Source: a virus
IMG/VR virus record: IMGVR_UViG_3300023281_001520
Coordinates: 1 to 42,141 of that record
Reading direction: 5' to 3' (one strand)
Length of the DNA: 42,141 bases
Shown here: positions 1 through 42,141 of the stretch, piece after piece
Layout of the letters: each line of letters opens with the position of its first letter
Position numbering within the stretch: position 1 is the stretch's first letter
The notes under the pieces: generated by a model
The model's input: the letters and a program-made list of their open reading frames with translations, nothing else
Told to the model about the DNA's origin: nothing
Database searches by the model: none
Made by a program: the position numbers and the translations under genes

Positions 1-230
1 GTATATCATTCAAAATCCAAGACGGCCCTATCAAAGAAAACGGCGTGAACGGCTGTCAGGTGGATACCTTGATTCATGCGGCTAAGATTATCATTGATGG
101 TCTAGACAAGAAATTCCCTTGCATGGAAAACAAAATGGCATCGCATGGTTTGCAATCCGCATTGTGGGCATTAGAAAGCCGAAAGGCTAATCGAGAAGCT
201 AGAGGCGTAGAGGGGACTAGCGAGGCATGA
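1..230 (+). CDS. Acb2/Tad1-type hairpin protein, 5' truncated by window edge
   Basis: The open frame runs in from the left edge (codons in frame with position 3) and ends at the TGA at 228-230. The visible part reads DGPIKENGVNGCQ, then FPCMENKMASHGLQSALWAL, and ends in NREARGVEGTSEA. From memory, a conserved GPIKEVGVNG...PCRENALA.TKLEEALMWL...REARGVEGT pattern marks the phage family now grouped as the Acb2/Tad1 hairpin domain. Acb2 and Tad1 are phage proteins that bind cyclic oligonucleotide or gcADPR signals and so blunt CBASS and Thoeris defences. A GTG at 45 lies inside the conserved block, so it is unlikely to be the true start, which must be outside the window. The stop overlaps the ATG of the next gene. 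Family membership is recognised by motif only. Whether this copy binds a nucleotide is inference. Confidence 0.75.
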   Translation, partial: ISFKIQDGPIKENGVNGCQVDTLIHAAKIIIDGLDKKFPCMENKMASHGLQSALWALESRKANREARGVEGTSEA

Positions 231-397
231 ATAACGATTTGATGGGCATATTATTCTTGGCGATGAATTTATTTTCCCTACTTGTCGGCGCAAGACTTGA
301 GCGCAATCGATGGGAAAGCAAATCGGATCAACCACAAATGGTGTCAACTTCTACCGGGCTTTACATTGTTAAAAGGGATGTGAGATTTAAGGACTAG
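227..397 (+). CDS. small single-pass membrane protein
   Basis: 56 aa. The ATG at 227 overlaps the upstream stop (ATGA), and GAGGGGACTAGCGAGG lies just ahead. Residues 5-21 (LMGILFLAMNLFSLLVGA) form one hydrophobic helix, followed by a basic/polar tail (RLERNRWESK). The function is not recognised. Tight coupling to the sponge-like gene suggests co-expression. It ends with GGACTAG, the same heptamer seen at several early gene starts, here as part of the coding end. Confidence 0.6.
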   Translation: MNNDLMGILFLAMNLFSLLVGARLERNRWESKSDQPQMVSTSTGLYIVKRDVRFKD

Positions 398-455
398 GCA
401 TTTATAAACTTTATGGGGATTTGAAAGTAGTGAATTATTTAAGAGGGGACTAGCA

Positions 456-572
456 ATGTATAAGTTCTTAAATCGGCTTTACCGGGCTTATTGGATTGGC
501 TGGACAAATCACCAAAGAAACCTAGCCAGCTTGAAGAGGAATAAAAAATACAGCCCTTGGATGGGCTCATGA
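456..572 (+). CDS. basic aromatic microprotein
   Basis: 38 aa, starting MYKFLNRLYRAYWIGW, rich in Arg, Lys and aromatics, with no cysteines. The start is chosen by a strong Shine-Dalgarno, AAGAGGGGACTAGCA, two bases before ATG. This is one of the GGACTAG sites. Function unknown. It is too short for confident homology, and the ribosome-binding site is the main support. Confidence 0.5.
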   Translation: MYKFLNRLYRAYWIGWTNHQRNLASLKRNKKYSPWMGS

Positions 573-584
573 AAGAGGAACAAA

Positions 585-800
585 ATGGCCAACATATTCG
601 AAAAAATCCCCACGCTAAACTGGGAGGAATTAAATGGAAAATCTCTACAGATACACACATCAAAAGATACAGATGAGCTCATGGTGTTTGGGGTCGAAGT
701 GACAACCGGAAAGGCCTACCTATTGGCTTGCGATCGTATTAAAAATAAACTGACTAGAACGCCAGAACCATATGATGGTGATCCATTAAGAAAGAGATGA
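585..800 (+). CDS. small hypothetical phage protein
   Basis: 71 aa, preceded by GAAAGAGGAACAAA. The predicted fold is a mixed alpha/beta miniprotein (LMVFGVEVTTGKAYLLACDRIKNK). It ends in PLRKR. Its last codons and the next start lie inside a 16-bp sequence that is repeated exactly at the next gene junction (964-979). No family is recognised. It belongs to the early small-gene train. Confidence 0.6.
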   Translation: MANIFEKIPTLNWEELNGKSLQIHTSKDTDELMVFGVEVTTGKAYLLACDRIKNKLTRTPEPYDGDPLRKR

Positions 801-979
801 ATATGGGACTAATACCACCGAAACCTCCGATGACCCCAGCAGAGATTAGACGCCGAACACAGCAGCTAAAGATACCACACCATCCAGTTGAGCCGGTAGT
901 TCTGAACAAACCATTCTCATTCAAACTACAAGTGGCCAAGGCCGTTAGATGGATTCTTAAGGGATTAAGAAAGAGATGA
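797..979 (+). CDS. small proline-rich N-terminus, basic C-terminus protein
   Basis: 60 aa. The ATG overlaps the upstream stop by four bases (ATGA), indicating translational coupling. The N-terminus is proline-rich (GLIPPKPPMTP) and the C-terminal helix is basic (AVRWILKGLRKR). No family is recognised. An antisense reading frame of similar length exists (754-939), but coupling, the repeated junction and the Shine-Dalgarno AAAGAG favour this strand. Confidence 0.5.
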   Translation: MNMGLIPPKPPMTPAEIRRRTQQLKIPHHPVEPVVLNKPFSFKLQVAKAVRWILKGLRKR

Positions 980-1080
980 TGATTGACTCTTTGATGCTTT
1001 GGAACTGTTTAATTATGCTTACAGGTTATTGTATAGGCTTTTTATTGGGTTATTTATCTGGAAGGCTTGAAAGAAAATGA
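976..1080 (+). CDS. membrane microprotein
   Basis: 34 aa (MMIDSLMLWNCLIMLTGYCI, then GFLLGYLSGRLERK). Almost the whole chain is one transmembrane helix followed by a positive tail, so an N-out or signal-anchor orientation is likely. The ATG at 976 overlaps the previous stop and its own stop overlaps the next ATG at 1077. It shares the tail pattern GARLER/SGRLER with the 56-aa membrane protein at 227-397, hinting at a common origin or role. Function unknown. Confidence 0.5.
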   Translation: MMIDSLMLWNCLIMLTGYCIGFLLGYLSGRLERK

Positions 1081-1301
1081 TTAAGAAATACCTGATATTC
1101 GCATACGACGACCATTACCCTGACGGGGGAGTATGTGATTTTTACAAGTCAGTAGACAGTCTGGACGAAGCTCAAGAGATAGCAGAAAGCCTGACATTTG
1201 ATAATATCGATATCGTAGAACACTCAACAATGAAGCTTATTAAATCAATTGATGTCTACGAACTCAATCGCCAAAAGGCCATCAAAAATGGCCTACGATA
1301 A
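1077..1301 (+). CDS. small alpha/beta hypothetical protein
   Basis: 74 aa. It begins MIKKYLIFAYDDHYPDGGVCDFY and has a DxLDEAQEIAESL helix and a beta strand NIDIVEH, an arrangement common in small phage proteins of unknown role that present a beta-alpha-beta fold. The start overlaps the upstream stop (ATGA). The function is not recognised. Confidence 0.65.
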   Translation: MIKKYLIFAYDDHYPDGGVCDFYKSVDSLDEAQEIAESLTFDNIDIVEHSTMKLIKSIDVYELNRQKAIKNGLR

Positions 1302-1322
1302 TACAAACGAAGGTTAAGAAAT

Positions 1323-1556
1323 ATGAAGCCAGAACTTAGAGAGACAGTTAAAAGGGCTACGTTTGAAATATTAGATGCTTTAGACAAAGAAGGGATGATG
1401 CTTGATGAATTTTGTGAAGCATTAGTATGTATCAACACAACTATGGTAGCGCATGTCTTTAGGGGAGACAGTGCAGGCAGATCCCCTCAAACATTTCTCG
1501 ACAAGGTTTTAATACCAATACTTAGGAACCATACGGGAATATTGAAAGGTGACTGA
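1323..1556 (+). CDS. small helical hypothetical protein
   Basis: 77 aa with Shine-Dalgarno AAGGTTAAGAA. It is mostly helical (RETVKRATFEILDALDKEGMM...) with a C-terminal TFLDKVLIPILRNHTGIL. The layout of a helix, a loop GDSAGRSP and a helix resembles a compact DNA- or protein-binding helical bundle, but no family is recognised. The stop TGATG overlaps the next start. Confidence 0.6.
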   Translation: MKPELRETVKRATFEILDALDKEGMMLDEFCEALVCINTTMVAHVFRGDSAGRSPQTFLDKVLIPILRNHTGILKGD

Positions 1557-1771
1557 TGAAGCCAACGAGGAAAAAAACCTTCTACCTAAATTTCTGTCGT
1601 AAACATCAGCACAGGGATGGGTATGTAAAGATACTAGCGCCGTCATACGATGCGGCTTATATGGTAGTAGTAGCTAAGTTTAATATGGATTGGCAGCAGA
1701 TAACTGAAGAAGATAAATTTAACAAGGCCAAGTTCTCTAAAGGGGAAATCATGGTCGTGGAGGTTGGTTAA
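1556..1771 (+). CDS. small hypothetical protein
   Basis: 71 aa. The ATG shares its A with the preceding TGA. It is basic at the N-terminus (MKPTRKKTFYLNFCRKHQHR) and then alternating beta/helix (GYVKILAPSYDAAYMVVVAKF), reminiscent of small beta-alpha-beta phage proteins that resemble single-domain RNA- or DNA-binding folds. No definite family. Confidence 0.6.
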   Translation: MKPTRKKTFYLNFCRKHQHRDGYVKILAPSYDAAYMVVVAKFNMDWQQITEEDKFNKAKFSKGEIMVVEVG

Positions 1772-1924
1772 ATGAAAAAAGGACAAAAAGGAAACCAAAT
1801 GGGAATTGTAATTTGCGGCTGTGGTGGAACCTGCAAATTCCAAGGGGACGTTGGCGAGATTGACGAATGGAAGTGCAAAGAATGTGGTACTGTTTATGGA
1901 TTAGCGAAGAAAGAGGGTAAATGA
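1772..1924 (+). CDS. zinc-ribbon miniprotein
   Basis: 50 aa. Cysteines at CGCGGTC and CKECG form two knuckles (C-G-C...C and CxxC) separated by about 14 residues, consistent with a single zinc ribbon. The N-terminus is lysine- and glycine-rich. Small ribbons of this type in phages commonly bind nucleic acid or the host RNA polymerase, but which applies here cannot be told. The stop overlaps the next start (ATGATG). Confidence 0.55.
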   Translation: MKKGQKGNQMGIVICGCGGTCKFQGDVGEIDEWKCKECGTVYGLAKKEGK

Positions 1925-2082
1925 TGGATGACCACATAACAAAGCTTTTTAATAGATACTCGGCAGCTATGAACCGATGGGAAATAGCATTTAATGCCAA
2001 TAACGGCAACATGAGCAAGATAGAGAGAAACCTTTCTAGGAAAGCATATTCGGCCTACCATGAATGGAAAACTGCGCTGTGA
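1921..2082 (+). CDS. small helical hypothetical protein
   Basis: 53 aa (MMDDHITKLFNRYSAAMNRW...), mostly amphipathic helix with charged ends and no cysteines. Start candidates are ATG 1921 and ATG 1924. The first overlaps the preceding stop and follows GAAAGAGGGTAA. Function unknown. It is coupled to the next membrane protein through a GTGA overlap. Confidence 0.5.
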   Translation: MMDDHITKLFNRYSAAMNRWEIAFNANNGNMSKIERNLSRKAYSAYHEWKTAL

Positions 2083-2237
2083 TAAGCCATCATTGGAGGC
2101 ATTTTGCATTGCAGTTAATTTTCGGCGGTGCATGGTTATTGTGGGGATACCCTTGGGGGAATTTGGCAAATGCTTTTTTGGTTTGTTGGTTGATGGTTTC
2201 TTTGGGGGATTTCATGCAGAGGAAAATTGATAAATGA
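2079..2237 (+). CDS. small hydrophobic membrane protein, GTG start
   Basis: 52 aa, starting at a GTG that overlaps the upstream stop (GTGA). Two hydrophobic stretches are visible, FALQLIFGGAWLLWGYPW and NAFLVCWLMVSLGDF, so one or two membrane helices are likely. The tail MQRKIDK is basic. Size and topology would also fit a small class II holin, but it lies far from the endolysin, so I leave it unassigned. The stop overlaps the next ATG (AAATGAATG). Confidence 0.5.
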   Translation: MISHHWRHFALQLIFGGAWLLWGYPWGNLANAFLVCWLMVSLGDFMQRKIDK

Positions 2238-2401
2238 ATGAGATTCAAACAGTTAAAGCTACCGTAAGATGGATTTGCCCCAGTTGCCATTCTCATAATG
2301 AGGGCAAGACTAGATATGGGGTTTTTACTAACTTCGTTCATTGCCCCTATTGCAAAACAAAATCAATTGTGAGCACAGAAGAGGAAGAGGAAAATGTATA
2401 A
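2234..2401 (+). CDS. zinc-ribbon miniprotein
   Basis: 55 aa. Two knuckles, WICPSCHSHN and VHCPYCKTK, are spaced by about 20 residues, a clear CxxC...CxxC zinc ribbon. The C-terminus is an acidic EEEEE tail. The start overlaps the previous stop and the end overlaps the nuclease start at 2394. It may bind nucleic acid or protein; its role is not known. Confidence 0.65.
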   Translation: MNEIQTVKATVRWICPSCHSHNEGKTRYGVFTNFVHCPYCKTKSIVSTEEEEENV

Positions 2402-2765
2402 CTATAAATGTAAAGTCGTGCGAGTCGTAGACGGCGACACAATCGACGTAGATATAGATTTGGGGCTAGATGTCACTCTGAGGAAGCAACGGCTTAGGCT
2501 GGCAGATATAGACGCCCCAGAGCGATACCATGAAGATGGGGATAGGGCCACAACATGGCTAAGGCACAAGCTCTTTTTTAGGGAAAAATTAGAAGATGAG
2601 GGGGTATGTTATATTCAGACATATAAAAAAGGTAGTTTTGGCCGGTATCTTGCTACAATCTGGCTAACAGAGGATGACTATGATGGGAACCTAATATCAA
2701 CTACTTTAAATGATATGATGGTTAAAGAAGGCTACGCCGTCCCATACGTCAAAAGAAAGACTTAG
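2394..2765 (+). CDS. staphylococcal-nuclease-fold (SNase) endonuclease
   Basis: 123 aa, close to the size of a minimal SNase domain. The family signatures are in order: CKVVRVVDGDTIDVDIDLGL (first strands and Ca2+-binding Asp), LRLADIDAPE (catalytic Arg and the acidic DxxDAPE loop), and KGSFGRYLATIW (second catalytic Arg before the beta strand). There is no signal peptide, so it probably acts on DNA or RNA in the cytoplasm, for example in host DNA breakdown or nucleotide scavenging. It sits at the end of the small early gene train and starts eight bases before the preceding stop. Family assignment is firm. The target is inference. Confidence 0.88.
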   Translation: MYNYKCKVVRVVDGDTIDVDIDLGLDVTLRKQRLRLADIDAPERYHEDGDRATTWLRHKLFFREKLEDEGVCYIQTYKKGSFGRYLATIWLTEDDYDGNLISTTLNDMMVKEGYAVPYVKRKT

Positions 2766-3008
2766 ATGAAACAGAAGCAGGAAAATAAGCCCCAGATCAA
2801 AACAACACGGAGCAAAAGAGGATCATACCACGTAGTCAATATAGAACACTTACCAACGGGTATAAAAGTGGAAGGGGAGGGGAAGGTTTTCTATCGCTTG
2901 AAGCTGGATCTCATATCGGAGCTTAATAAGCTAATTGCGGATAGCGGGTACAAGATGATTAAAGAACTTGCTAGCCCAGACGAAATCAAATCGAAGTTGC
3001 ATAGCTAA
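2766..3008 (+). CDS. release-factor-like miniprotein (RF-1 core without GGQ), tentative
   Basis: 80 aa, immediately after the nuclease stop. The central segment VVNIEHLPTGIKVEGEGKVF resembles the VRITHIPTGI-V strand-turn region of bacterial class I release factors, followed by a helix (LDLISELNKLIADSG) where those proteins have their RSQ..NK..A helix. The catalytic GGQ and its flanking loop are absent. Phages carry several small RF-1-like proteins of unknown role. The similarity is short and I rate it weak. The last 78 bases overlap, in antisense, the end of the HAD-like gene. Confidence 0.45.
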   Translation: MKQKQENKPQIKTTRSKRGSYHVVNIEHLPTGIKVEGEGKVFYRLKLDLISELNKLIADSGYKMIKELASPDEIKSKLHS

Positions 3009-3410
3009 GTCAAAATCGGTTGATACTTGACCAACTATCAAGCAATCCCTATTCTTCAGCCCCTTTTCTTGGACAGGGTGAGTGATAACTCTAACATCGG
3101 TGGAATATTTGCAGACCATCGAAGACCAATAGATATCATCGAATCTACCGGGTCCTAGAAGGCTATTAGTTTTTTGGAAGCCTAGCATAAGGTCTTCAGG
3201 AACAAAGTTTTTTTTCTCGCCAAGGTCGATTTGATGACTAAGGCCAATAACATTGTATCCATGGCGTTGCAGGCTTATCATTATGGGTCTTCGCCCAGGC
3301 ACTAGCTCAATATCAGACGGCCCAATTATGTGAGACTTATTAAATCTTGATCGACGAATTGAGTTATCCATATTTATAAAAATAGTTTTTTTACGTCGAT
3401 AGATACTCAT
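2931..3410 (-). CDS. HAD-fold protein with degenerate active site (pseudophosphatase-like)
   Basis: 159 aa on the minus strand. The start at 3410 is chosen because it overlaps the upstream stop (TAATG), although an in-frame ATG exists at 3446. The chain follows class III HAD phosphatases of the HisB-N/GmhB/polynucleotide-phosphatase type: TIFINMDNSIRRS (motif I), GPSDIELVPG, HGYNVIGLSHQ (motif II, Ser58), and GQVSTDFDLAM...FVWASKFF (motif IV). Motif I normally reads DxDGT; here it is N13-M-D15-N-S, so the nucleophilic aspartate is asparagine. In motif IV the first Asp is Gln128 and Asp132 remains. No clear motif III lysine is seen. The fold call is by motif order. Loss of phosphatase activity is inference. 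A binding role is possible. Confidence 0.6.
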   Translation of the reverse strand: MSIYRRKKTIFINMDNSIRRSRFNKSHIIGPSDIELVPGRRPIMISLQRHGYNVIGLSHQIDLGEKKNFVPEDLMLGFQKTNSLLGPGRFDDIYWSSMVCKYSTDVRVITHPVQEKGLKNRDCLIVGQVSTDFDLAMQLRFDFVWASKFFNHLVPAIRN

Positions 3411-3658
3411 TAATACCCTTGGTATAGTTTCTTGCACTTCACACAAGCCTTTGCTTTTATCTTAACCCCATTCTTTAAATATGTAGTTCCAACTGTGATG
3501 ACTTCATGATCGCACATGATTTGCTTAAAAATGATATATGTCACTGCAAATGGGTATACTGTTACCATTGTAACAAAATACATAAATCCTTTCTCTTTTT
3601 TAGTTCTTGGCTTGAATTTACTGTCATTTGGAAAATGAAATACGTTGCTATTGTCCAT
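3410..3658 (-). CDS. membrane protein with C-terminal zinc knuckle
   Basis: 82 aa. The start at 3658 is chosen over 3700 because GAAGGTGAC sits four bases upstream. A polar basic N-terminus (about 25 aa) is followed by one transmembrane segment (FMYFVTMVTVYPFAVTYIIF, about 26-45), then a C-terminal CDH...KACVKCKKLY element that could bind zinc through Cys/His/Cys/Cys. The stop overlaps the start of the HAD-like gene, so the two are translationally coupled. No family recognised. Confidence 0.55.
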   Translation of the reverse strand: MDNSNVFHFPNDSKFKPRTKKEKGFMYFVTMVTVYPFAVTYIIFKQIMCDHEVITVGTTYLKNGVKIKAKACVKCKKLYQGY

Positions 3659-3845
3659 AAAAGTCACCTTCTTTAAAAGTTTTGAAATCTTCTCGTTCAT
3701 ACTCCCTCACGATGTATTTTAGGTCTACAAGAAAGTTACCATTTCTCGATGTAGATATTATTCGGCCAATATATTTATAAAACGTATCGTTCTTTTTGGT
3801 GATTAAAACTTTATCACCCGGCTTTATGAACGTATAATCTAACAT
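3648..3845 (-). CDS. small beta-rich (SH3/KOW-like) protein
   Basis: 65 aa. The pattern FIKPGDKVLITKKNDTFYKYIGRIIS...NGNFLVDL looks like a small SH3/KOW-type barrel (PGDKV..I, GRI.S..NG.FLV), a common shape in phage accessory proteins. It is the first gene of the three-gene minus-strand cassette. It overlaps the following gene by 11 bases and its start codon lies against the divergent cassette. The predicted promoter for that divergent cassette sits inside its first codons. Function unknown. Confidence 0.5.
   Translation of the reverse strand: MLDYTFIKPGDKVLITKKNDTFYKYIGRIISTSRNGNFLVDLKYIVREYEREDFKTFKEGDFYGQ
3811..3838 (+). promoter_or_regulatory. sigma70-like promoter for the lipoprotein cassette
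   Basis: TTATCA (3811-3816), a 16-base spacer, and a perfect TATAAT (3833-3838). Transcription would begin near 3845, about 25 bases upstream of the coiled-coil gene start at 3871. It lies inside the 5' end of the divergent 65-aa gene. Evidence is by consensus match only. Confidence 0.5.
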
Positions 3846-3870
3846 GATTTACTCACACGTCGGAGGTTTT

Positions 3871-4233
3871 ATGAGTTGGGAGCTATTTAATCCTTTTCAG
3901 CGATTGTTTTGCTGTATCTCAGTTTTAATATTAATTTCTCAAGGGGCGGTTATATACACCCAACATTATAACAAAAAGGAGATTAGCTTCTCTTGTCCTA
4001 AAATCCCTCCTCAACCGAGGCCCAGAAAGGTTGATCTATCCGGCTTGAAGAAGATTAGCTTGAAGATTGATGCAGTCCTTAAGAGCAATAAAAATCTGAG
4101 TCGAATACTTAAAGATCAAAAGAAGCTAGATAGAATTACAAAGGATCATAAGAAGCTAGATAAAATCATCAAGAACCAATGGAAAGTTGATCGAATAATA
4201 CAAAGGCTCGATACATGGGGTGTAGAAAAATAG
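3871..4233 (+). CDS. membrane-anchored coiled-coil protein (spanin-like topology)
   Basis: 120 aa. The start at 3871 is chosen over 3844 because CGGAGG lies four bases upstream. It has an N-terminal transmembrane segment (LFCCISVLILISQGAVIY), a short proline-rich stretch (CPKIPPQPRPRKVDL), then about 70 residues of charged helix with a ten-residue beat (RILKDQKKLD, RITKDHKKLD, KIIKNQWKVD). An N-in/C-out periplasmic coiled coil is the topology of phage inner-membrane spanins, and a small lipoprotein gene lies downstream. Two cytochrome genes lie between, however, and the endolysin is 30 kb away, so spanin is one hypothesis only. It could equally be a tether for the cytochrome lipoproteins. Confidence 0.5.
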   Translation: MSWELFNPFQRLFCCISVLILISQGAVIYTQHYNKKEISFSCPKIPPQPRPRKVDLSGLKKISLKIDAVLKSNKNLSRILKDQKKLDRITKDHKKLDKIIKNQWKVDRIIQRLDTWGVEK

Positions 4234-4300
4234 ATATACTGAATACTAAATTGTTATGATATTCCTATAACTACATTAAAACTATGGATGTGAGGGGACA

Positions 4301-5758
4301 ATGAGAACAAAGTTAATCTCTTGGTTTGCTGTTAATTATATTTTGGGCTTTATTCTAGCCTTGTCATTATCATGTGAGAAAGAAAAAACTCGTGTGACTG
4401 ATGATGGGCAAACACAGTTCCCAGTACCATCAAGGCCAGTTCCTCCGCCCGTTGATAATAACCCGGATTTCGTAGCTTTCGACAACTTAGAATCAAACTT
4501 GTTGTTGGATATGAACACGATACCAAGTCAAGACAGGACATCGACTAGGTATCTAATTCTTTGTGATAAATTTAACGAGAAGACGGGTAATATTGGGGTA
4601 TATGCTGGCGGGGTCAATAAAGCACTGAACCATTTAAGCTGGGAACGGGATATAAAAAACACAATTGCCGCAGATCCTAACTCTTGTATCTTTCGCTTAA
4701 ATCTTGATGACTACGATCTAACGGCGCAGGATTGGAGGCTGATTGAAAGATCTGACCCCTTCAAGCTGGAAAGTTTTACTACAAGAGGGCTTCTCTTGAA
4801 GCAGTTGAGTCAAACGGCCCGATTATGGATACACGCCCATAATTTTATCAACGTATCTCATAACAACGATACCTATTATCAACTGTTAGATATCCCAAAC
4901 ACAGTATTAGGTTTTCAAGAGCTATTCGGGGTCAATAACCAAGCCGACTTTGACAACTTTGACAACGATCTATTCCTATTAGGCTTTTTTGGCTCACCTA
5001 TAAGCCTTCAGAAGAATCGGTTACTTCAGAGGAATGACGGGGACGATGGCCCAGTATGGTCAACTTTTGATACATTAGTTGATGGAGCTGTAAACGCCCA
5101 AAAAAATCTATTCGAAAACCCTTTTCCTCTAGCGGCTAGATCCCGCAGGGTCTTCGTAGCGGATGGATCGGAATATATAGCAACGCTGCCAAATGGGCTT
5201 CATGCTTATGCTCTATTCGATGCTAACGACCAAATTATCACGGAGGCCCCGCTTAATTTGGTTATTGATATTAATAACGGCAATCTTGATCCTACGATCA
5301 GAAATAGCCTTAGCTGCATGAAATGCCACAGATCTGGGGCACTTGCCGCAGACGATCAGATAAGAGATCATATTGCCGGTAACTCTTCTTTCGGCGCTCT
5401 CGATTCGCAGTTAGGCCAAGCATACTTTAGGAGCCCTGGTGCTAATGCTGCAATTTTTAGGCAGGATCAAGCTAGGTATAAGGAATCTATGGAGAGGATA
5501 GGTATAAATACGAGCGATGATGATCCAGTAAATCTTTTGACAAATACGCTTAGAAACGAATGGAGCGTTAAGCAGGCTGCTAGTTTCTATTTCCTTAAAG
5601 ATGAAGAATTTATAGAGTGCTTAGAAGGCAGCGCAGACGCTAAAGAACAGATCGGTCAATTATTAAATGGTGGGACTGTATCGTTTGACCAAATGGTAGC
5701 TACTAACCCGATTCTAATTCGGGATTGTAATTTATTTCAAGACGATATTAACGGATAA
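4301..5758 (+). CDS. monoheme c-type cytochrome lipoprotein
   Basis: 485 aa with Shine-Dalgarno GTGAGGGGACA. A lipoprotein signal (hydrophobic to ALSLSC25, then EKEK) predicts export and lipidation. A heme-attachment motif C339-M-K-C342-H343 is present. Around it the sequence matches a cellular family I recall as c-type cytochrome domain proteins of Planctomycetes and Myxococcota: an ADGSEYIATLPNGLHAYALF strand block, then LVIDI, then NSLSCMKCHRSGALAADDQI. Heme would be attached outside the cytoplasm by the host Ccm or Ccs system. The role (electron transfer, peroxide handling, surface masking) is unknown. It is the first gene of a cytochrome pair and 13 bases upstream of the second. A complete non-virion-like lipoprotein cytochrome in a phage is unusual. 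Confidence 0.75.
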   Translation: MRTKLISWFAVNYILGFILALSLSCEKEKTRVTDDGQTQFPVPSRPVPPPVDNNPDFVAFDNLESNLLLDMNTIPSQDRTSTRYLILCDKFNEKTGNIGVYAGGVNKALNHLSWERDIKNTIAADPNSCIFRLNLDDYDLTAQDWRLIERSDPFKLESFTTRGLLLKQLSQTARLWIHAHNFINVSHNNDTYYQLLDIPNTVLGFQELFGVNNQADFDNFDNDLFLLGFFGSPISLQKNRLLQRNDGDDGPVWSTFDTLVDGAVNAQKNLFENPFPLAARSRRVFVADGSEYIATLPNGLHAYALFDANDQIITEAPLNLVIDINNGNLDPTIRNSLSCMKCHRSGALAADDQIRDHIAGNSSFGALDSQLGQAYFRSPGANAAIFRQDQARYKESMERIGINTSDDDPVNLLTNTLRNEWSVKQAASFYFLKDEEFIECLEGSADAKEQIGQLLNGGTVSFDQMVATNPILIRDCNLFQDDING

Positions 5759-5770
5759 GGAGAGTAAAAA

Positions 5771-6157
5771 ATGTTCTACGCTTTTATTATAACACTTAGC
5801 TTTTTGACGGTTGGTTGTGGTGGGAGCGAGACAATTATAGAAAAGCAAGCCCCGGCACCCGCTCCAACTACTCCTCCAGCAAACCCAGGTAATGGCGGCG
5901 GGGCTGGCGGCGGCGTCGGCGGCGGCGGCGGGGCGGTTAATTTTGCTGGGACCATCAAGCCCATGCTCAACAAGTTTTGTGCTCAAAGTGGCTGTCATGC
6001 TGGGGCCGGGTTTATTCAGACAGAGGCCGCTTTTTTAAATTCACGGAGTAAAATAAGGGTTGGAAATGGAACTATGCCGCCACAATATTCGCCGAATTAC
6101 AACCAATTTACACGAAAAGAAAAAGCTCTTTTCTCTGCTTATTTTGATAGTAATTAA
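5771..6157 (+). CDS. small cytochrome c lipoprotein (CxxxCH, MPP)
   Basis: 128 aa, with AAGGAGAG seven bases upstream. It has a signal peptide ending in LTVGC16 (lipobox), then a Pro/Ala and Gly-rich linker (about 26-56), then a compact cytochrome-like domain: FAGTIKPMLNKFC70AQSGC75H76 and GNGTM102PPQ. I..ML...C...CH followed about 26 residues later by MPP is the usual order of heme attachment and distal Met ligand in class I cytochromes c. CxxxCH is a less common spacing but is known to bind heme in some bacteria and is frequent in deltaproteobacterial and Bdellovibrio-type lipoproteins. Its likely partner is the larger cytochrome directly upstream. Heme binding is inferred from motifs. Confidence 0.75.
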   Translation: MFYAFIITLSFLTVGCGGSETIIEKQAPAPAPTTPPANPGNGGGAGGGVGGGGGAVNFAGTIKPMLNKFCAQSGCHAGAGFIQTEAAFLNSRSKIRVGNGTMPPQYSPNYNQFTRKEKALFSAYFDSN

Positions 6158-6332
6158 TTCGGGCTGCATAAATACGGTCACTGAGGTATCTAAGGACCAG
6201 TGGAACTACTGCCACAAGACTTGCGGCATAGGGCGGCTTCACTCGGCAGGTATGGACTGGTTCAACGGCGAAGAAACTTGTACCTGTATCGACAGGCTTC
6301 GATATAGGATGGAGCCTATTGAGCGCAGATAA
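6060..6332 (+). CDS. small cysteine-rich lipoprotein overlapping the cytochrome gene
   Basis: 90 aa. The only ATG starts are 6060 and 6066, with AAGGG six bases upstream, so its first 98 bases overlap the preceding gene in the +1 frame. The N-terminus is long and basic (ending HEKKK), followed by a hydrophobic LFSLLILIVINSGC with the cysteine as probable lipidation site (position -3 is Asn, off consensus). The mature part has CHKTC and CTC arranged as YCHKTCG...ETCTCID, a paired-cysteine layout seen in small phage and bacterial lipoproteins. Overlap plus size recall outer-membrane spanins, which often overlap another gene. The role is unassigned. Confidence 0.5.
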   Translation: MEMELCRHNIRRITTNLHEKKKLFSLLILIVINSGCINTVTEVSKDQWNYCHKTCGIGRLHSAGMDWFNGEETCTCIDRLRYRMEPIERR

Positions 6333-6348
6333 TAAGGGAGATCATAAA

Positions 6349-6501
6349 ATGAAAATAAAGCGGGATTGTGAGCATTGCCTGAAATCATTTGAAGTTGACC
6401 ATTGGGAAGTCACCCGGAAAGGCAAAGGCCGATTTTGTGGGCGACCATGCGTTTACAAATGGATGACCAAGCAGTATAAACTAAAAAAAGCGAAGTCTTA
6501 A
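6349..6501 (+). CDS. treble-clef-like zinc-finger protein
   Basis: 50 aa. The start is ATG 6349 (AAGGGAG upstream) and not the TTG 30 bases earlier. Four cysteines sit in CEHCLKSF and RFCGRPCVYKW. The phrase CxxC-x-F...GRFCxxxC is typical of the small zinc fingers found at the N-terminus of phage HNH enzymes and packaging-associated proteins. There is no HNH catalytic core. It lies directly before the large terminase, so a packaging role is possible, but it is too small to be a usual small terminase subunit. Confidence 0.5.
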   Translation: MKIKRDCEHCLKSFEVDHWEVTRKGKGRFCGRPCVYKWMTKQYKLKKAKS

Positions 6502-6505
6502 TAAT

Positions 6506-7885
6506 ATGGCCGAGGCAAGGGTTATCCTACCGGCCCCACATTCGGAAATTCAATCCCTTATTATGAATTCGGCTTTTACTCCGGATCTGCAAGAAATGTA
6601 TGTAGCTTGTGGAACTAAATTCGGGAAGACGATATCAGGCGTTGCCAGTTATTGCGCTTTGGCCCCTGTTCTGAGAGAGGGCATTATCAGGCATGTGGCC
6701 CCGATATATTCTCAAGCAGGCATTGGCCTTAGATATGCGACGAAGTTCCTTCCAGGCGATCCTTATACCACTGTCAACAAAACCGCTCATACGATATCTT
6801 TTAACCAACGGGGCCGAAATCAGATAGTAGAGTTTTGGCATGGTCAGCAGCCCGAGTCCTTGGAAGGCGACGGGGTTATTTTCTATTTGCTAGATGAAGC
6901 CAGCAAAATGAAACAACAAGTCTATGACTCGGCTCTAACTACAATGACAGTCACCAAAGGGATTCTATGCGCTACCTCCACACCTAGAGGTAAACAGTCA
7001 TGGTTTTATGTTAAATGCATGGAAGCCCAAGCGGAGATGGAATGGTGCATCAAGCGGGGGAAGAATCCGACAAAGATCTTTCTTACAGCTCCAACTAGCG
7101 CCAATCCTCATGTATCGCCAGATGTGATAGCTAGAAACAAGAAAAATTTACCATCAAGATTATTCGAGCAATATTATTTAGCACATTTTGTGGACTCTGG
7201 GGAAATATTCCCTTGCTTCAGAGATGCCATTGAAGGCGAACCGCTTCACTTCGAGATGGAATCGCAATTGTGGTTAGCGCCAGAAGCGGATAAACTAGAA
7301 GATATAGTCATAGGGGCCGATTGGGGGAAGAAGGAGGATTACGCCGTTTTTACGGCTTGGTGCGTTAAAAAAAGGCGTATGATTGGCTTCATGAGATTTC
7401 GAGGCGTCGATTATATTAACGCCATTAAAAATCTTCTATGGTTCGGTCAGCAGTTTGGGCATATCCTCCAAGTTTGGCATGACAAGACGGGGCTTGGTGA
7501 AGTTATCGATGATGCTCTTAGCAATACAGAACTCCCGTACGAGGGTGTTATTTTCACCAACAAAAGCAAAAGTGCAATGGTCAATGCCATGATGATAGCT
7601 TTCCAACGGAGAGATATTCATTTACCGAATTGGCCTGATATGATCGAGGAATTAGACGCATACGAATGTAACTTTTCCGATGTAGGGAATATGAAGTATG
7701 CAGCTGGAGAAGGTTTTCACGACGATATAGTTTCGAGTATGTTTTTAGGCTGGGCGGCACTGGAAGAATACGCCCCTTCTAGCTTAGAAGTTATTTCACT
7801 GGATGAGCTAGAAAACCTAGATTTACAAGCAACGGACTTCAAAGCAGCCGATGAAGATTTTTATTCATGGCTGGGAAAAGGTTAA
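6506..7885 (+). CDS. terL: terminase large subunit
   Basis: 459 aa. The ATPase half shows a Walker A variant CGTKFGKT (35-42) and Walker B YLLDEAS with D130-E131, then a coupling segment ATSTPRGKQSW. The nuclease half shows acidic motifs IGADWGKKEDYAV (near 272), VWHDKTGLGEVIDDA (near 316) and FHDDIVSSM (near 410), the order expected for the RNase-H-like nuclease. It packages DNA into the prohead through the portal, whose gene follows after 3 bases. No strong Shine-Dalgarno is visible. Length is normal. A separate small subunit is not recognised nearby. Confidence 0.95.
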   Translation: MAEARVILPAPHSEIQSLIMNSAFTPDLQEMYVACGTKFGKTISGVASYCALAPVLREGIIRHVAPIYSQAGIGLRYATKFLPGDPYTTVNKTAHTISFNQRGRNQIVEFWHGQQPESLEGDGVIFYLLDEASKMKQQVYDSALTTMTVTKGILCATSTPRGKQSWFYVKCMEAQAEMEWCIKRGKNPTKIFLTAPTSANPHVSPDVIARNKKNLPSRLFEQYYLAHFVDSGEIFPCFRDAIEGEPLHFEMESQLWLAPEADKLEDIVIGADWGKKEDYAVFTAWCVKKRRMIGFMRFRGVDYINAIKNLLWFGQQFGHILQVWHDKTGLGEVIDDALSNTELPYEGVIFTNKSKSAMVNAMMIAFQRRDIHLPNWPDMIEELDAYECNFSDVGNMKYAAGEGFHDDIVSSMFLGWAALEEYAPSSLEVISLDELENLDLQATDFKAADEDFYSWLGKG

Positions 7886-10209: not shown

Positions 10210-11742
10210 ATGAAAAATCTTAAAAAAGATCAGACAGCACCACAGAAAGCCGTGGGCGACTTCTTAATAAAAGACGGCAAAGGTAAGCAAGTCATAATTG
10301 AGGGATTCGCTAACAAAGCTGTTAGCGATAGAATTGGTGATTTGATCCCGCCCGATGCTTGGGAGCTAGACAACTTCAAGAAGAATCCTATCATATTTTT
10401 CAATCATGATAGAAACATACCAATTGGCAAAGCTATTGATACAAAGATTACAGATGAAGGGCTGAAGATTAAGGTGAGGATCTCAAAATCAGATCAAGCC
10501 CCTATCCCCTTCATTAGAGACATGATCGAAGAGGGTATATTAAAAACCTTCTCGGTTGGATTTGATGACCATGAATCGGCTTTTAAATCAGACGAAGGTC
10601 ATAATAGCTTTAAGCGAGCCGAGCTACTAGAGACTTCAGTTGTCACTATTCCAATGAATCAGGAATCGGATTTCGAGCTTGTTTCTTTGAAGTCTGATGG
10701 GTGGGGTAAGATCAAAACTAAGTCAGATCTGTCTAGCTGGAAGGATAAGAGCTATTCGACAGTAGTTAGAGAGTGCTTGAGTGCTAAAGGTGCTTACGTT
10801 GCAGCCGTGGCCAAGTCTTATATAGACATAGACCCGGACCACTACCAGGATTTCGAAGTCAAGTTTCACGACTATCTAAACGGCGAGAAGCAAGCGGATG
10901 ATGAGTTTATAGAAGAGTGCGCCGAGAGGTTCTCTGTGTCTGCTACCAGCCTTCACGATCTGAATAAGAAAGCAGATATGGAGGAGGAAGAAGAAGAAGA
11001 GGAGGACAAGAAAGAAGGCGAAGAAGAAGAGGAAGAAGACAAGAAGAAGCAAGAGGATGAGGAAGAAGAAGAGGATAAGAAAGAAGACGAAGACGACAAG
11101 AAAAAGCAAGAGGATGAGGAAGAGGAAGAAGAAAAGGAAGAGAATAACGACAAGGCAGACTTTCAAGACTGCGTAGCCGGAAAAATTCCTAAGTTTATGG
11201 AGGAAGGGATGGAGCGTGACAAAGCCGTCGCCGCTGCTATATCTTCCTGTCAAGAGGGCAAAAGTTGCGACCTTACCCCTTCTAAGGATGACTTAAAACT
11301 CTTCTGTGATATCGCCGATAAGTCAGCCAAGGCAGAAGAAGAAGAGAAGAAAAAGCAGGCAGATTTAGGCGAAGGTGAAAGCGAAAGTGTTCCTATCGAT
11401 GAGAAAACATCAGAATTCGATATAGGCCAACCTAGTATCGACCTGCAAAAGTCTAGCCTTGCTCTCCAAGGGTCCCAACTCGAAACCACAAAAGCCTTGG
11501 TTGAGGCTCAGAATAATACCAATGAGCTTTTATCTGCAATGCTAGAAATAATGAAAAATGGCCCGACAACAGTTGAGACTGTCGAAGAATCTAAGGCCGA
11601 GGATGAGGAAGAAGAGGAAGAGGACCAAGAAGAAGACCAAGAAAAAAGACTAAAACGAATGGGAGAAGTAGAAAAAAAGATTTCACAGATAGAAAAAATA
11701 CAAGCCTATCATGAAAAGCTGGATAAGCTAATGGTGTTGTAA
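10210..11742 (+). CDS. prohead protease with acidic, scaffold-like C-terminus
   Basis: 510 aa, with the last half beyond the usual HK97 protease (about 200-230 aa). N-terminal part: GFANKAVSDRIGDLIPP, FFNHDRNIP (catalytic His), LKTFSVGFDD (catalytic Ser), RAELLETSVVTIP (acidic partner), typical of the U35/herpesvirus-like protease fold. Next is an unfamiliar segment (about 170-255), then about 70 residues nearly all Glu, Asp and Lys, then a small domain with DCVAGKIPKFMEEGMERDKA, and finally a helical C-terminus predicted to form a coiled coil. Acidic and coiled parts placed after a protease often serve as scaffold, which the protease then destroys. No separate scaffold gene is seen. Confidence 0.88.
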   Translation: MKNLKKDQTAPQKAVGDFLIKDGKGKQVIIEGFANKAVSDRIGDLIPPDAWELDNFKKNPIIFFNHDRNIPIGKAIDTKITDEGLKIKVRISKSDQAPIPFIRDMIEEGILKTFSVGFDDHESAFKSDEGHNSFKRAELLETSVVTIPMNQESDFELVSLKSDGWGKIKTKSDLSSWKDKSYSTVVRECLSAKGAYVAAVAKSYIDIDPDHYQDFEVKFHDYLNGEKQADDEFIEECAERFSVSATSLHDLNKKADMEEEEEEEEDKKEGEEEEEEDKKKQEDEEEEEDKKEDEDDKKKQEDEEEEEEKEENNDKADFQDCVAGKIPKFMEEGMERDKAVAAAISSCQEGKSCDLTPSKDDLKLFCDIADKSAKAEEEEKKKQADLGEGESESVPIDEKTSEFDIGQPSIDLQKSSLALQGSQLETTKALVEAQNNTNELLSAMLEIMKNGPTTVETVEESKAEDEEEEEEDQEEDQEKRLKRMGEVEKKISQIEKIQAYHEKLDKLMVL

Positions 11743-11877: not shown

Positions 11878-13266
11878 ATGGGCAAAAAAATAGTAACAGA
11901 GGCGGACCTTTCCGCAAAAGAAAAAGAACTTGATGACCGTTTTTCTAGAATCGAAACCTTTCAAAAGGAATTCGAAGCTAAAGGAATGGAAGTATTATCT
12001 GGCAACGGTGGACCAACTATCCACACACGAAGCCGGGTAGGATCATACGAGCAAAAAATCCTGTCATCTTTTGGATGCAAGGGATTTAGTGACCTTTTAC
12101 TGGTCAACTCATGCGACGAAAAATTCAATCATGTTAGCATCGAGGCTAAGTCTGCCGTTCAAAACTTAAAAGAAGCTTATGACATTGGTCGATGGATTTC
12201 TCAAATGTTCCACGATCAGCCTTTAGACGGCGAGCGGAAAGTAGCCCAAGTCAAAAATATCTTCGGGTCTTATTACGGCAAGGAAGTGTTAGAGCCATTG
12301 GTTAAGGCTTTTGATTCAACCGTAGCAGGTACGGGTGGTAACTGGGTCCCAACTGGGATGAGTAACCAATTTATTGCAGAGCACGAGCTAGAGAAAAAAG
12401 TTGCTACGATGTTTCGTGAATTGCCAATGCCAACTAACCCTTGGGATCTCCCAACGGCTGGTGGAAGAACTACAGCCCGCAAGATTGCGGAAGGTGCAAC
12501 CCTTAGTGGAGCTAACTTCACAACTGGCAAGATTACGTTTTCAGCTACAAAATTAGGTGAATACTACCCAATTCCTACCGAGCTTGATGAAGATTCTGCA
12601 CCCGCAATTTTGGCTTTAGCTAGGACCGAGATCGTTGAAGCTCAAATTAGAGCAAGAGAGGAAATTATCCTCAATGGCGATACCACAGCAACTCATATGG
12701 ACGACGACACAGCCGCCCTCCTCCCTGATGTTGCCCAGAAAGTTCAGATCGGACTTCGAAAGAAAGCCTTGGTCAACAGTGCAACAGTGACAGCAAGTTC
12801 AGCAGTCACCAAGGTCATTCTTGATAACATGCGTAACGCCATGGGTAAGTTTTCCAACAACCCAAGAGACATGGCATACTTCTTGGGAGCGACTGGCTAT
12901 AACCAGGCTGTAACCATCGACGAAGTAACCACAGTTGAAAAGTACGGGCCACACGCTTCTATCCATACGGGGGCACTTGCTCAGTACCGGGGAGTTCCTA
13001 TCATTACCTCGGAAGCGGTTAGAGAGGACGTTGCAGCGACGGGCGTCAATACAGGCGCAGGACCAAACGATAAAGGCGTTGCATACCTAACCAATGTTAA
13101 AAGATTCTATGCAGGCGTTAGGCGACCGATTCAAACACGTATCGCAATGTCAGAGCCTGATGATGATTTGTGGAAACTAGCATCCTATCAGAGATGGGAT
13201 TTCCAAGGTCATGTGCAAAGCGCAAGTGAAGTATCAACCGTTTTAGCGATTGACCTCACTGTGTAA
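11878..13266 (+). CDS. major capsid protein, HK97 fold
   Basis: 462 aa. The N-terminus is helical and charged (KEKELDDRFSRIETFQKEF), resembling the delta/scaffold domain of HK97-type capsid precursors. The mature fold part shows GNWVPTGMSNQF, KKVATMFRELPM, SATKLGEYYPIPTELDEDS, IVEAQIRAREEIILNGD and AYFLGATGYNQ, all characteristic of this family's A and P domain. It should be cut by the protease after about 100-150 residues. Shine-Dalgarno CGGAAGG is nine bases upstream. Being bounded on both sides by hairpins probably allows high separate expression of its mRNA. Confidence 0.9.
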   Translation: MGKKIVTEADLSAKEKELDDRFSRIETFQKEFEAKGMEVLSGNGGPTIHTRSRVGSYEQKILSSFGCKGFSDLLLVNSCDEKFNHVSIEAKSAVQNLKEAYDIGRWISQMFHDQPLDGERKVAQVKNIFGSYYGKEVLEPLVKAFDSTVAGTGGNWVPTGMSNQFIAEHELEKKVATMFRELPMPTNPWDLPTAGGRTTARKIAEGATLSGANFTTGKITFSATKLGEYYPIPTELDEDSAPAILALARTEIVEAQIRAREEIILNGDTTATHMDDDTAALLPDVAQKVQIGLRKKALVNSATVTASSAVTKVILDNMRNAMGKFSNNPRDMAYFLGATGYNQAVTIDEVTTVEKYGPHASIHTGALAQYRGVPIITSEAVREDVAATGVNTGAGPNDKGVAYLTNVKRFYAGVRRPIQTRIAMSEPDDDLWKLASYQRWDFQGHVQSASEVSTVLAIDLTV

Positions 13267-17668: not shown

Positions 17669-18319
17669 ATGTCGCTGAAGACCAATGCCCTGTGTTTGCT
17701 TGTAACTCTGAAGGACCATTTAGATATACCAGCCGACGATACCTCTTTGGATTTGAGATTGAATAGGCTGATAAATGTAGCCTCTCAATTCATCGAAAAC
17801 TATTGTGGGCGGGTATTGGTCGAAGCTTCATATGATGAATATCAAGACGGCAGAGCTAGCAACAGATTACTATTAAAGCAATGGCCTGTTATTGGGGGAC
17901 CCGCAGACGGTGGAACAAAGCCGGAAGTTATCATAGACGAAGACGGCGTTTTTCCTTCTACTGATGCTGTGGACGTTTCTAGCTATTGGGTAGGTAACGA
18001 TATTGAACTAGTCCGCAAGGGAATGTGGCCGAAGGGTTATAGAAATATCAAGATTAGCTATACCGCAGGGCTTGGCAAAGTAAACACAGTGGCCGGGACT
18101 AATACCTTACCTTCAGATTTAGAGCAGGCTTGTCTAGATTATGTAGAATGGTTGCATACAATGAATACAGATAGAAGGATCGGACGAAACACCAAAACCA
18201 AGGGTGACGAGTCAGTATCTTTTATTTCGGATATACCGCCACATGTTGCCATGATCTTAGAAAAGTATATCCGGCATGAGTTCCCATCAGATGCGCCTGT
18301 TGGGGTTAGGAACGGCTAA
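17669..18319 (+). CDS. head-tail connector, gp6-like (HK97 type)
   Basis: 216 aa. Typical helical adaptor features: LKDHLDIPADDTSLDLRLNR, LINVASQFIENYCGRVL near the N-terminus, a middle beta segment (IKISYTAGLG), and LPSDLEQACLDYVEWLHTMN near 150. This is the layout of the HK97 gp6-like / Phage_connect family that forms a ring under the portal. AGGTAATATATT precedes the ATG. Confidence 0.8.
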   Translation: MSLKTNALCLLVTLKDHLDIPADDTSLDLRLNRLINVASQFIENYCGRVLVEASYDEYQDGRASNRLLLKQWPVIGGPADGGTKPEVIIDEDGVFPSTDAVDVSSYWVGNDIELVRKGMWPKGYRNIKISYTAGLGKVNTVAGTNTLPSDLEQACLDYVEWLHTMNTDRRIGRNTKTKGDESVSFISDIPPHVAMILEKYIRHEFPSDAPVGVRNG

Positions 18320-18320
18320 A

Positions 18321-18587
18321 ATGATAGATCAGGCATCAATAGAACAAGTTGAATACGAGCTAACAGATGAGGATTGGGAGATCCTTAAACGCTGGAGGCA
18401 CTTTAAACCCCATGGCGATCAATCCCGCCGATATATCCGTATTAATCAAGAGACTAAGAATATCGCCAAAATCATGATGCATAATTGCCCGCCTTCTAAG
18501 GAGCGCAGTATAGCCCTTAGGAAGCTTGAAGAGGCAAGGCTATGGGCTAACCAGGCAATCATGAAGAACGAGGCTGAGAGTTCATGA
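18321..18587 (+). CDS. Acb2/Tad1-type hairpin-domain protein
   Basis: 88 aa. The start at 18321 is chosen over 18276, one base after the upstream stop. The C-terminal half reads GDQSRRYIRINQETKNIAKI, NCPPSKERSIALRKLEEARL, WANQAIMKNE. I recall this pattern (YxxIRxxAKxLAxxIxxxCPxSxExSLALxKLEEAxMWANxAI) as the common phage family annotated as the Acb2/Tad1 hairpin domain. It overlaps the next gene by four bases. The coupling with connector genes could mean a structural role or simply insertion into that operon. Nucleotide binding is inference. Confidence 0.6.
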   Translation: MIDQASIEQVEYELTDEDWEILKRWRHFKPHGDQSRRYIRINQETKNIAKIMMHNCPPSKERSIALRKLEEARLWANQAIMKNEAESS

Positions 18588-19021
18588 TATCGACTAATGC
18601 AAATATTTTAGTGAAGCGAGTCAAGAGCAAGCTAAAGGTGCTTGACTTCAAGGATCGTGAAACCGCTCAGAAGTTTGTCAGAATTGCCCTTTTGCTTGAG
18701 AACCAGACAAAGATTAATGTACGCCGTAGGGGCTTAGTCGATACCGGCGCTTTGCTAAACTCAATCACTTCTAGTGTGGTTAGGTTGAAGTCAGATAGCG
18801 CCCGTATCGAGTGGGGCTCAGTTGGCGTTAGATATGCAGCAACCCACGAATTTGGGCTAAAGGGGACTATCAACATTCCAAGCCACAGTAGGAATAGATC
18901 TGGCAATACTCACACAGTTAAGACACACAGCCGCAAAGTGAATTTTAGGGAGAGGCCATATATCAGACCTTCCCTGATTCAGCAGCGGCGAAAAATCCTT
19001 AAAATCCTGATGGGGGATTAG
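18584..19021 (+). CDS. head-tail joining protein, HK97 gp10-like
   Basis: 145 aa. Signatures: INVRRRGLVDTGALLNSITS, RIEWGSVGVRYAATHEFG, and near the end FRERPYIRPSL. Together these are diagnostic of the gp10/minor tail completion family (VDTG.L..S, YA...EFG, P..RP....) that joins tail to head. Spacing to the next gene is zero (stop TAG then ATG). Confidence 0.85.
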   Translation: MISTNANILVKRVKSKLKVLDFKDRETAQKFVRIALLLENQTKINVRRRGLVDTGALLNSITSSVVRLKSDSARIEWGSVGVRYAATHEFGLKGTINIPSHSRNRSGNTHTVKTHSRKVNFRERPYIRPSLIQQRRKILKILMGD

Positions 19022-41441: not shown

Positions 41442-41933
41442 TTACCAGTCGAAACCTATGCCCCCGGTAAATGTTGCCGATTTTATGTTTTGACTGGTGA
41501 TGGCTGTCATACCAAGATTTACGTTTTGGTATAATCTTCTGGAGAAACTAAAGCCCATAACAGGATCTCGTTTGGGCTTTATTATTTGCCCACCGTCTAC
41601 CTTTCTTCTTTGTAACCCGGCAGGACCAAGGCCAGCATGAACCGTAAACCTATTGTTCAGAACAACAGTTCTATTAGCCTCTACCCTTATGCTGCTCCGT
41701 AGTCTTTTTAGTTTGTGTTTAGTTTCCGCAAGTTCAGCCCGTAGCTGTATCACTATAATTCTTGCTCTCTCCGCTTGCTCCCTGGAAACCATTTTAAAAT
41801 CATTTGAAGAATATTTTCTTTTTATTCCGTCGTTCGTCTGGACTTCAATATTGCCGTTCACTAAATAGCTCGGTATTTTTTCGGCCAATGCAGCCGCAGG
41901 GAAAAATAGAATTAGTAAAAAGAATTTTAGCAT
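41442..41933 (-). CDS. exported outer-membrane-like coiled-coil protein
   Basis: 163 aa. N-terminal signal peptide MLKFFLLILFFPAAALA with cleavage before EKIPSY. Middle: helix with heptads (REQAERARIIVIQLRAELAE, TKHKLKRLRSSIRVEAN). C-terminal third: alternating beta strands (FTVHAGLGPAGL, FSFSRRLYQNVNLGMTAI, ATFTGGIGFDW) that ends in the aromatic residue (Trp) typical of outer-membrane barrels. A membrane-spanning strand set plus coiled coil would be anchored in the outer membrane. Start overlaps the upstream collagen-like gene. No family named. Confidence 0.55.
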   Translation of the reverse strand: MLKFFLLILFFPAAALAEKIPSYLVNGNIEVQTNDGIKRKYSSNDFKMVSREQAERARIIVIQLRAELAETKHKLKRLRSSIRVEANRTVVLNNRFTVHAGLGPAGLQRRKVDGGQIIKPKRDPVMGFSFSRRLYQNVNLGMTAITSQNIKSATFTGGIGFDW

Positions 41934-42141
41934 TTACCTCTCCTGTGTTTTATTAAATTTAAGTAGCTTAAAACATATTCGCTTGTAGTCACTTTGATGC
42001 TTTTCCAGGCCCATGTCTCTTGGTGTGATCTGGCATCTCTACAAGCGCAAATCCAAAATTCTTTTTCGTCGCCAATGGGGCCAACGGGGCCAGGAGAGCC
42101 GTCTTCGCCAGCAGGACCAACGGGGCCAGCAGGACCAGCAG
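41927..42141 (-). CDS. collagen-like repeat protein, 5' truncated by window edge
   Basis: 70 residues visible (ATG lies outside the window). The N-terminal visible part is AGPAGPVGPAGEDGSPGPVG-PIGDEKEF, a run of Gly-X-Y triplets, followed by a small C-terminal segment with WICACRDARSHQETWAWKSI. In phages such repeats are common in tail fibres or surface spikes and form triple helices. This copy ends in a basic tail, TLIKHRRGKC-like, and its stop overlaps the next gene's ATG on the same strand. Being partial, its role is open. Confidence 0.7.
   Translation of the reverse strand, partial: AGPAGPVGPAGEDGSPGPVGPIGDEKEFWICACRDARSHQETWAWKSIKVTTSEYVLSYLNLIKHRRGKC

Follow-up and report, generated by a model that had tools for sequence, protein, structure and literature searches.

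A predicted Tad1-type sponge gene at the edge of a phage contig and a candidate Acb2-type gene in the same genome

The 42,141-nt phage sequence analysed here, which we refer to throughout as the window, opens inside a gene, and its first 230 bases raise the question of which protein family that gene belongs to, how much of it lies beyond the contig and what its product might do for the phage. Bases 3-227 translate in frame 3 as 75 uninterrupted codons that end at a stop (228-230), and stops are frequent in both remaining forward frames at 1-230. The translated fragment carries the loop GPIKENGVNG, then a two-helix hairpin and then the tail RGVEGTSEA. The initial annotation had proposed an anti-defence protein of the hairpin family from the blocks KENGVNG, PCMENKMA and REARGVEGT, and each of these is present letter for letter in the 75-residue frame. 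It had also held that the window edge truncates the gene, and this was borne out: the frame leaves the contig at its left end, so that the gene starts outside the window, and joining the right end to the left yielded neither an open frame continuing tad1 nor the missing 5′ part. The ends of the 42,141-nt record share no mutual repeat. When IMG/VR was searched with two small neighboring genes for relatives that would show the DNA upstream of tad1, no relatives were found, and the sole near relative of the window that was found (L053) is a 10.9 kb contig without tad1.

HMM and sequence comparisons both point to Tad1. In an HMM search, residues 4-74 of the fragment matched PHROG 2428 (E 6.3e-19), and phmmer against solved structures returned CmTad1 (8kbb; E 1.1e-9 over 71 residues, CmTad1 61-131) and phiKZ gp184 (E 2.9e-6). 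By tblastn the fragment is matched by 124 phage records, which include the Tad1-annotated entries of SBSphiJ7 and SPG24, and 33 related IMG/VR loci are 51-74% identical to it. SBSphiJ7 is the phage that yielded the anti-Thoeris Tad1 (PMC12043709). Given the PHROG, CmTad1, tblastn and IMG/VR matches together, the similarity of fragment 3-230 to this family is no chance match. A family profile built from 29 clade proteins (alignment A1), the fragment included, matched CmTad1 (1.7e-17), gp184 (2.2e-10) and CbTad1 (8.8e-7). A search with the Acb2/Tad1 hairpin profile, PF24729, had been put forward as a check, and here the fragment gives no match at the cut-off of 27 bits; Pfam and NCBIfam scans of it as a whole returned zero matches. 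The profile covers the Tad1 kind but fits this clade poorly, since it scores the SBSphiJ7 Tad1 at 34.2 bits and the clade member L021 at 25.5 bits; some clade members lie at about 25-30 bits, and a few exceed the cut-off. On the sequence evidence and the fold model described below, the assignment of 3-230 as a predicted 5′-truncated Tad1-type gene, and not Acb2, is confirmed. The original label of an "Acb2/Tad1-type" anti-defence protein is therefore narrowed: the protein is retained as a putative sponge of the Tad1 lineage and the Acb2 part of the label is dropped, as the profile and fold matches are both to Tad1 structures.

The extent of the missing part can be judged from the full-length clade relatives, which mostly have 112-135 residues (range 104-146) and the majority of which begin with MALETLK; about 45-60 residues are absent from the fragment. 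In its nearest full-length relative (L002, 74% identical) the counterpart of the fragment is residues 48-122, and the AlphaFold2 model of this relative (pLDDT 85.4) has strands at 15-18, 39-42 and 47-50 and helices at 67-84 and 88-114. Structure prediction, also proposed as a check on the family, came out in favor of Tad1: the model has a C-terminal hairpin arranged as in Tad1 and, in VIA-align 2, overlays CbTad1 (8smd) with Z 10.0 and 1.8 Å over 71 residues (model 51-122). The first eight rows of that search are all Tad1, and in Foldseek the first eight places are taken by CmTad1 and CbTad1. Tad1 proteins have an antiparallel β-sheet at the N-terminus; the L002 model has its three strands within residues 15-50, but the best CbTad1 overlay spans 51-122 only. 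Because the model matches Tad1 structures, what is absent is most likely the remainder of the Tad1 fold and no additional domain. The earlier suggestion that a second domain may precede the hairpin is not upheld by the full-length clade relatives, in which the Tad1 fold itself supplies the N-terminal portion and no extra domain is present. Long N-terminal extensions do occur elsewhere in the family, in phiKZ gp184 and in Burkholderia phage FLC9. In FLC9 (LC667451.1, 135653-136669; L079, 1-834) a cyclophilin-type peptidyl-prolyl isomerase domain (PF00160, 75.8 bits) precedes the Tad1 part and is fused in frame to this C-terminal domain. Overall, and assuming an intact frame upstream, 3-230 very probably encodes the C-terminal two thirds of a Tad1 sponge of about 115-135 residues that has been cut by the contig edge.

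As regards ligands, we take F82 and N92 of CbTad1 to act in gcADPR binding, and R109 and R113 to act in the binding of cyclic trinucleotides (Leavitt et al., 2022; Li et al., 2024). All four residue identities were checked in the CbTad1 sequence, whose numbering is used here. R109 and R113 are invariant in the clade and in every sequence compared, and N92 is retained in 28 of the 29 clade members, including the protein of the fragment. Position 82, which is aromatic in CbTad1, CmTad1, SBSphiJ7 Tad1 and phiKZ gp184, is Leu in 26 clade members, the window protein among them; two others have Phe there and one has Ala. As Leu mostly replaces F82, the ligand preference of the clade may have shifted, and for the same reason we think that cyclic trinucleotide binding would be its best-preserved activity, the gcADPR preference perhaps being altered. 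Taken to its limit, this becomes the alternative that survives best, namely a protein of Tad1 fold that has lost its ability to sponge up gcADPR, its targets being cyclic trinucleotides alone (signals of CBASS and type III CRISPR, e.g., cA3) or another nucleotide. The loss of the aromatic residue, a clade loop that is one residue shorter and the two invariant arginines are in keeping with it, whereas the retention of N92 is not. Moreover, Leu occupies position 82 in 5 of 12 other phage homologues (the other seven are aromatic there) and is therefore a common variant, and in the alignment the position adjoins a gap. A complete loss of gcADPR binding is thus conceivable but unlikely, and we retain the reading of a Tad1 sponge. 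In a tree with few strongly supported branches, the clade stands apart from the tested Tad1 proteins and groups with Brochothrix phage BtpYZU04 (98/77). The locus adds to the Tad1 family a branch beyond those already tested, in which one defined residue change in the signal pocket lends itself to experiment.

The gene neighborhood is summarized in Table 1. The stop of tad1 overlaps the ATG of the next gene (ATGA, 227) and overlapping tiny genes follow, so the run that extends from tad1 is operon-like. In this respect the initial description of a gene "at the head of the early operon" is partly sustained, by the stop/ATG overlap and by the tiny plus-strand genes to 3008, but neither "early" nor "head" is proven. 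A first place for tad1 is unsupported because the contig begins inside the gene. An early operon is likewise unsupported, because in eight relatives tad1 lies near a terminase gene (the large terminase gene about 0-1.5 kb away on the same strand) and replication genes lie elsewhere; the opposite end of the window from tad1 holds RecT and exonuclease genes (35-37 kb) and DnaB (39 kb). Promoter and terminator scans of 1-6600 gave no excess over shuffles. The two proteins with cytochrome c type motifs that are encoded upstream of terminase have no match in Pfam or PHROG and would be odd phage cargo. In the bacterial genome collection the sole match to the clade (L072; JAJFUZ010000229.1) lies on a contig of 4.1 kb that was binned into a Parachlamydia MAG. 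No host is named, as this contig is too short and the Parachlamydia link is uncertain.

Table 1. Positions of the features discussed, in the window and in relatives with neighboring acb2-like and tad1 genes.
Locus	Feature	Positions	Strand	Remark
Window	tad1, 3′ part, C-terminal 75 residues	3-230	+	5′ end beyond contig
Window	About 14 tiny genes, mostly overlapping or abutting	227-3008	+	Directly 3′ of tad1; from ORF list
Window	Staphylococcal-nuclease homologue	2394-2765	+	SNase PF00565, 35.7 bits
Window	Two proteins, lipoprotein-like N-termini, cytochrome c type motifs (CMKCH; looser CAQSGCH)	4301-6157	+	Upstream of terminase
Window	Terminase large subunit	6506-7885	+	tad1 upstream of packaging genes
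Window	Long Glu/Asp/Lys-rich tract	10876-11253	+	Inside ORF 10210-11742, between portal gene and 11878-13266
Window	Head-tail adaptor	17669-18319		Neighbor of Acb2-type gene
Window	Acb2-type hairpin protein (candidate), complete, 88 aa	18321-18587	+	PF24729 and PHROG 1454
Window	Neck/tail completion gene	18584-19021		Neighbor of Acb2-type gene
Window	Collagen-like GPAGPVGPAGE repeats	41927-42139	-	Gene cut by right contig end
L004	acb2-like; tad1	629-898; 901-1281		3 bp apart
L007	acb2-like; tad1	1850-2089; 2089-2457		One-base overlap
L031	acb2-like; tad1	4618-4860; 4863-5231		3 bp apart
L032	tad1; acb2-like	4788-5228; 5854-6201		acb2-like 0.6 kb downstream

The proximity of terminase to tad1 in relatives would also suit a protein that bears a Tad1-like domain and is part of the virion or injected, of the kind seen in phiKZ gp184, a homologue that is an injected inner-body interactor (PMC10449902). 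However, the clade relatives are short (104-146 aa) and possess no extra N-terminal domain, whereas the phiKZ chain is about 150 residues longer, and we regard this explanation as very improbable. Equally improbable is a decayed remnant that has no intact start upstream. The 3′ part alone is visible and the contig ends within the gene, as a remnant would allow, but the 75 codons are free of stops, every invariant position is kept and the overlap of the tad1 stop with the ATG of the next gene is that of a working operon. Finally, although the helical hairpin (PF24729) is common to both families, it is scarcely credible that the fragment is a plain Acb2, as its profile and fold matches land on Tad1 and as neither the N-terminal strand region of its relatives nor the GPIKENGVNG loop is present in Acb2-like proteins.

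With the fragment read as Tad1, the same phage also has, at 18321-18587 in its block of head-tail connector genes, a second gene whose scores place it in the sponge families, this time as Acb2 type. PF24729 matches 18411-18563 with 38.8 bits against its cut-off of 27, PHROG 1454 matches the gene with E 1.7e-14, and L053 encodes a 90% identical Acb2-type protein with the same downstream neighbor. Used alone, PF24729 misses the Tad1 protein of this phage yet detects its second gene. Acb2 folds as a short helix followed by the hairpin, and the model of the second product has helices at 16-26, 36-55 and 60-87; a fold search with this model gave no significant match, T4 Vs.4 (Z 5.8) being level with unrelated helical proteins. 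An Acb2-like gene lies directly upstream of tad1 in 3 of the 33 tad1 loci (L004, L007 and L031), and in L032 one follows downstream. The Acb2-like protein of L007 scores above the PF24729 cut-off and those of L004 and L032 below it, while the L031 protein (as L069) was recognized by its similarity to that of L007. As the acb2-like and tad1 genes of these pairs adjoin, joint use of the two sponges is suggested, and the neighbors are a possible two-sponge cassette. The papers searched contain no account of acb2 lying next to tad1, a negative of little weight. Tad1-type and Acb2-type genes thus co-occur in one phage and adjoin each other in relatives.

Tad1 is a hexamer of three dimers, in which gcADPR and cyclic dinucleotides occupy pockets between protomers and cyclic trinucleotides occupy the trimer interfaces, and it sequesters these signals without degrading them (PMC12043709). 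By analogy with the studied proteins, the window Tad1 would assemble into dimers and hexamers, holding gcADPR or cyclic dinucleotides between protomers and cyclic trinucleotides of the cA3 type at trimer interfaces. With the signals held uncut, Thoeris and CBASS effectors would stay off. The Acb2-type protein would, by kinship, cover cyclic di- and trinucleotides. A more ambitious proposal is that the clade is a separate Tad1 branch of uncultured phages whose gcADPR pocket is altered by the exchange of the aromatic residue for Leu while the cyclic trinucleotide site has been kept, with a division of labor between Tad1 and the Acb2 of the same phage and, in some relatives, a two-gene acb2-tad1 cassette. 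We offer this combination tentatively and consider it rather doubtful.

Among known systems the window protein is closest to CmTad1 (PDB 8kbb-8kbd), CbTad1 (7uav, 7uaw, 8smd, 8kbe-8kbh) and SBSphiJ7 Tad1, with which its hairpin and loops align over all 71-75 residues. The fold is shared, with overlays of Z 8-10, and N92, R109 and R113 are common to both sides of the comparison. Nevertheless, the clade is only about 35% identical or less to the solved Tad1 proteins, and it differs from CbTad1 in having Leu for Phe82 and the one-residue shorter loop. It also carries an NGCQVDT motif with an invariant Cys that sets it apart from these Tad1 proteins, the N-terminus of its full-length members (MALETLK..IGGF) differs from that of the tested proteins, and in the tree it occupies a branch of its own. 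Acb2 (T4 Vs.4 and the PaMx33/PaP2 Acb2; PF24729) has the helical hairpin in common with the fragment, which is itself of Tad1 type. In phiKZ gp184 (PDB 8y6v) the C-terminal 70 residues are homologous to the window Tad1, but that protein has 230 residues, about 150 of them extra, and is carried in the virion and injected into the host.
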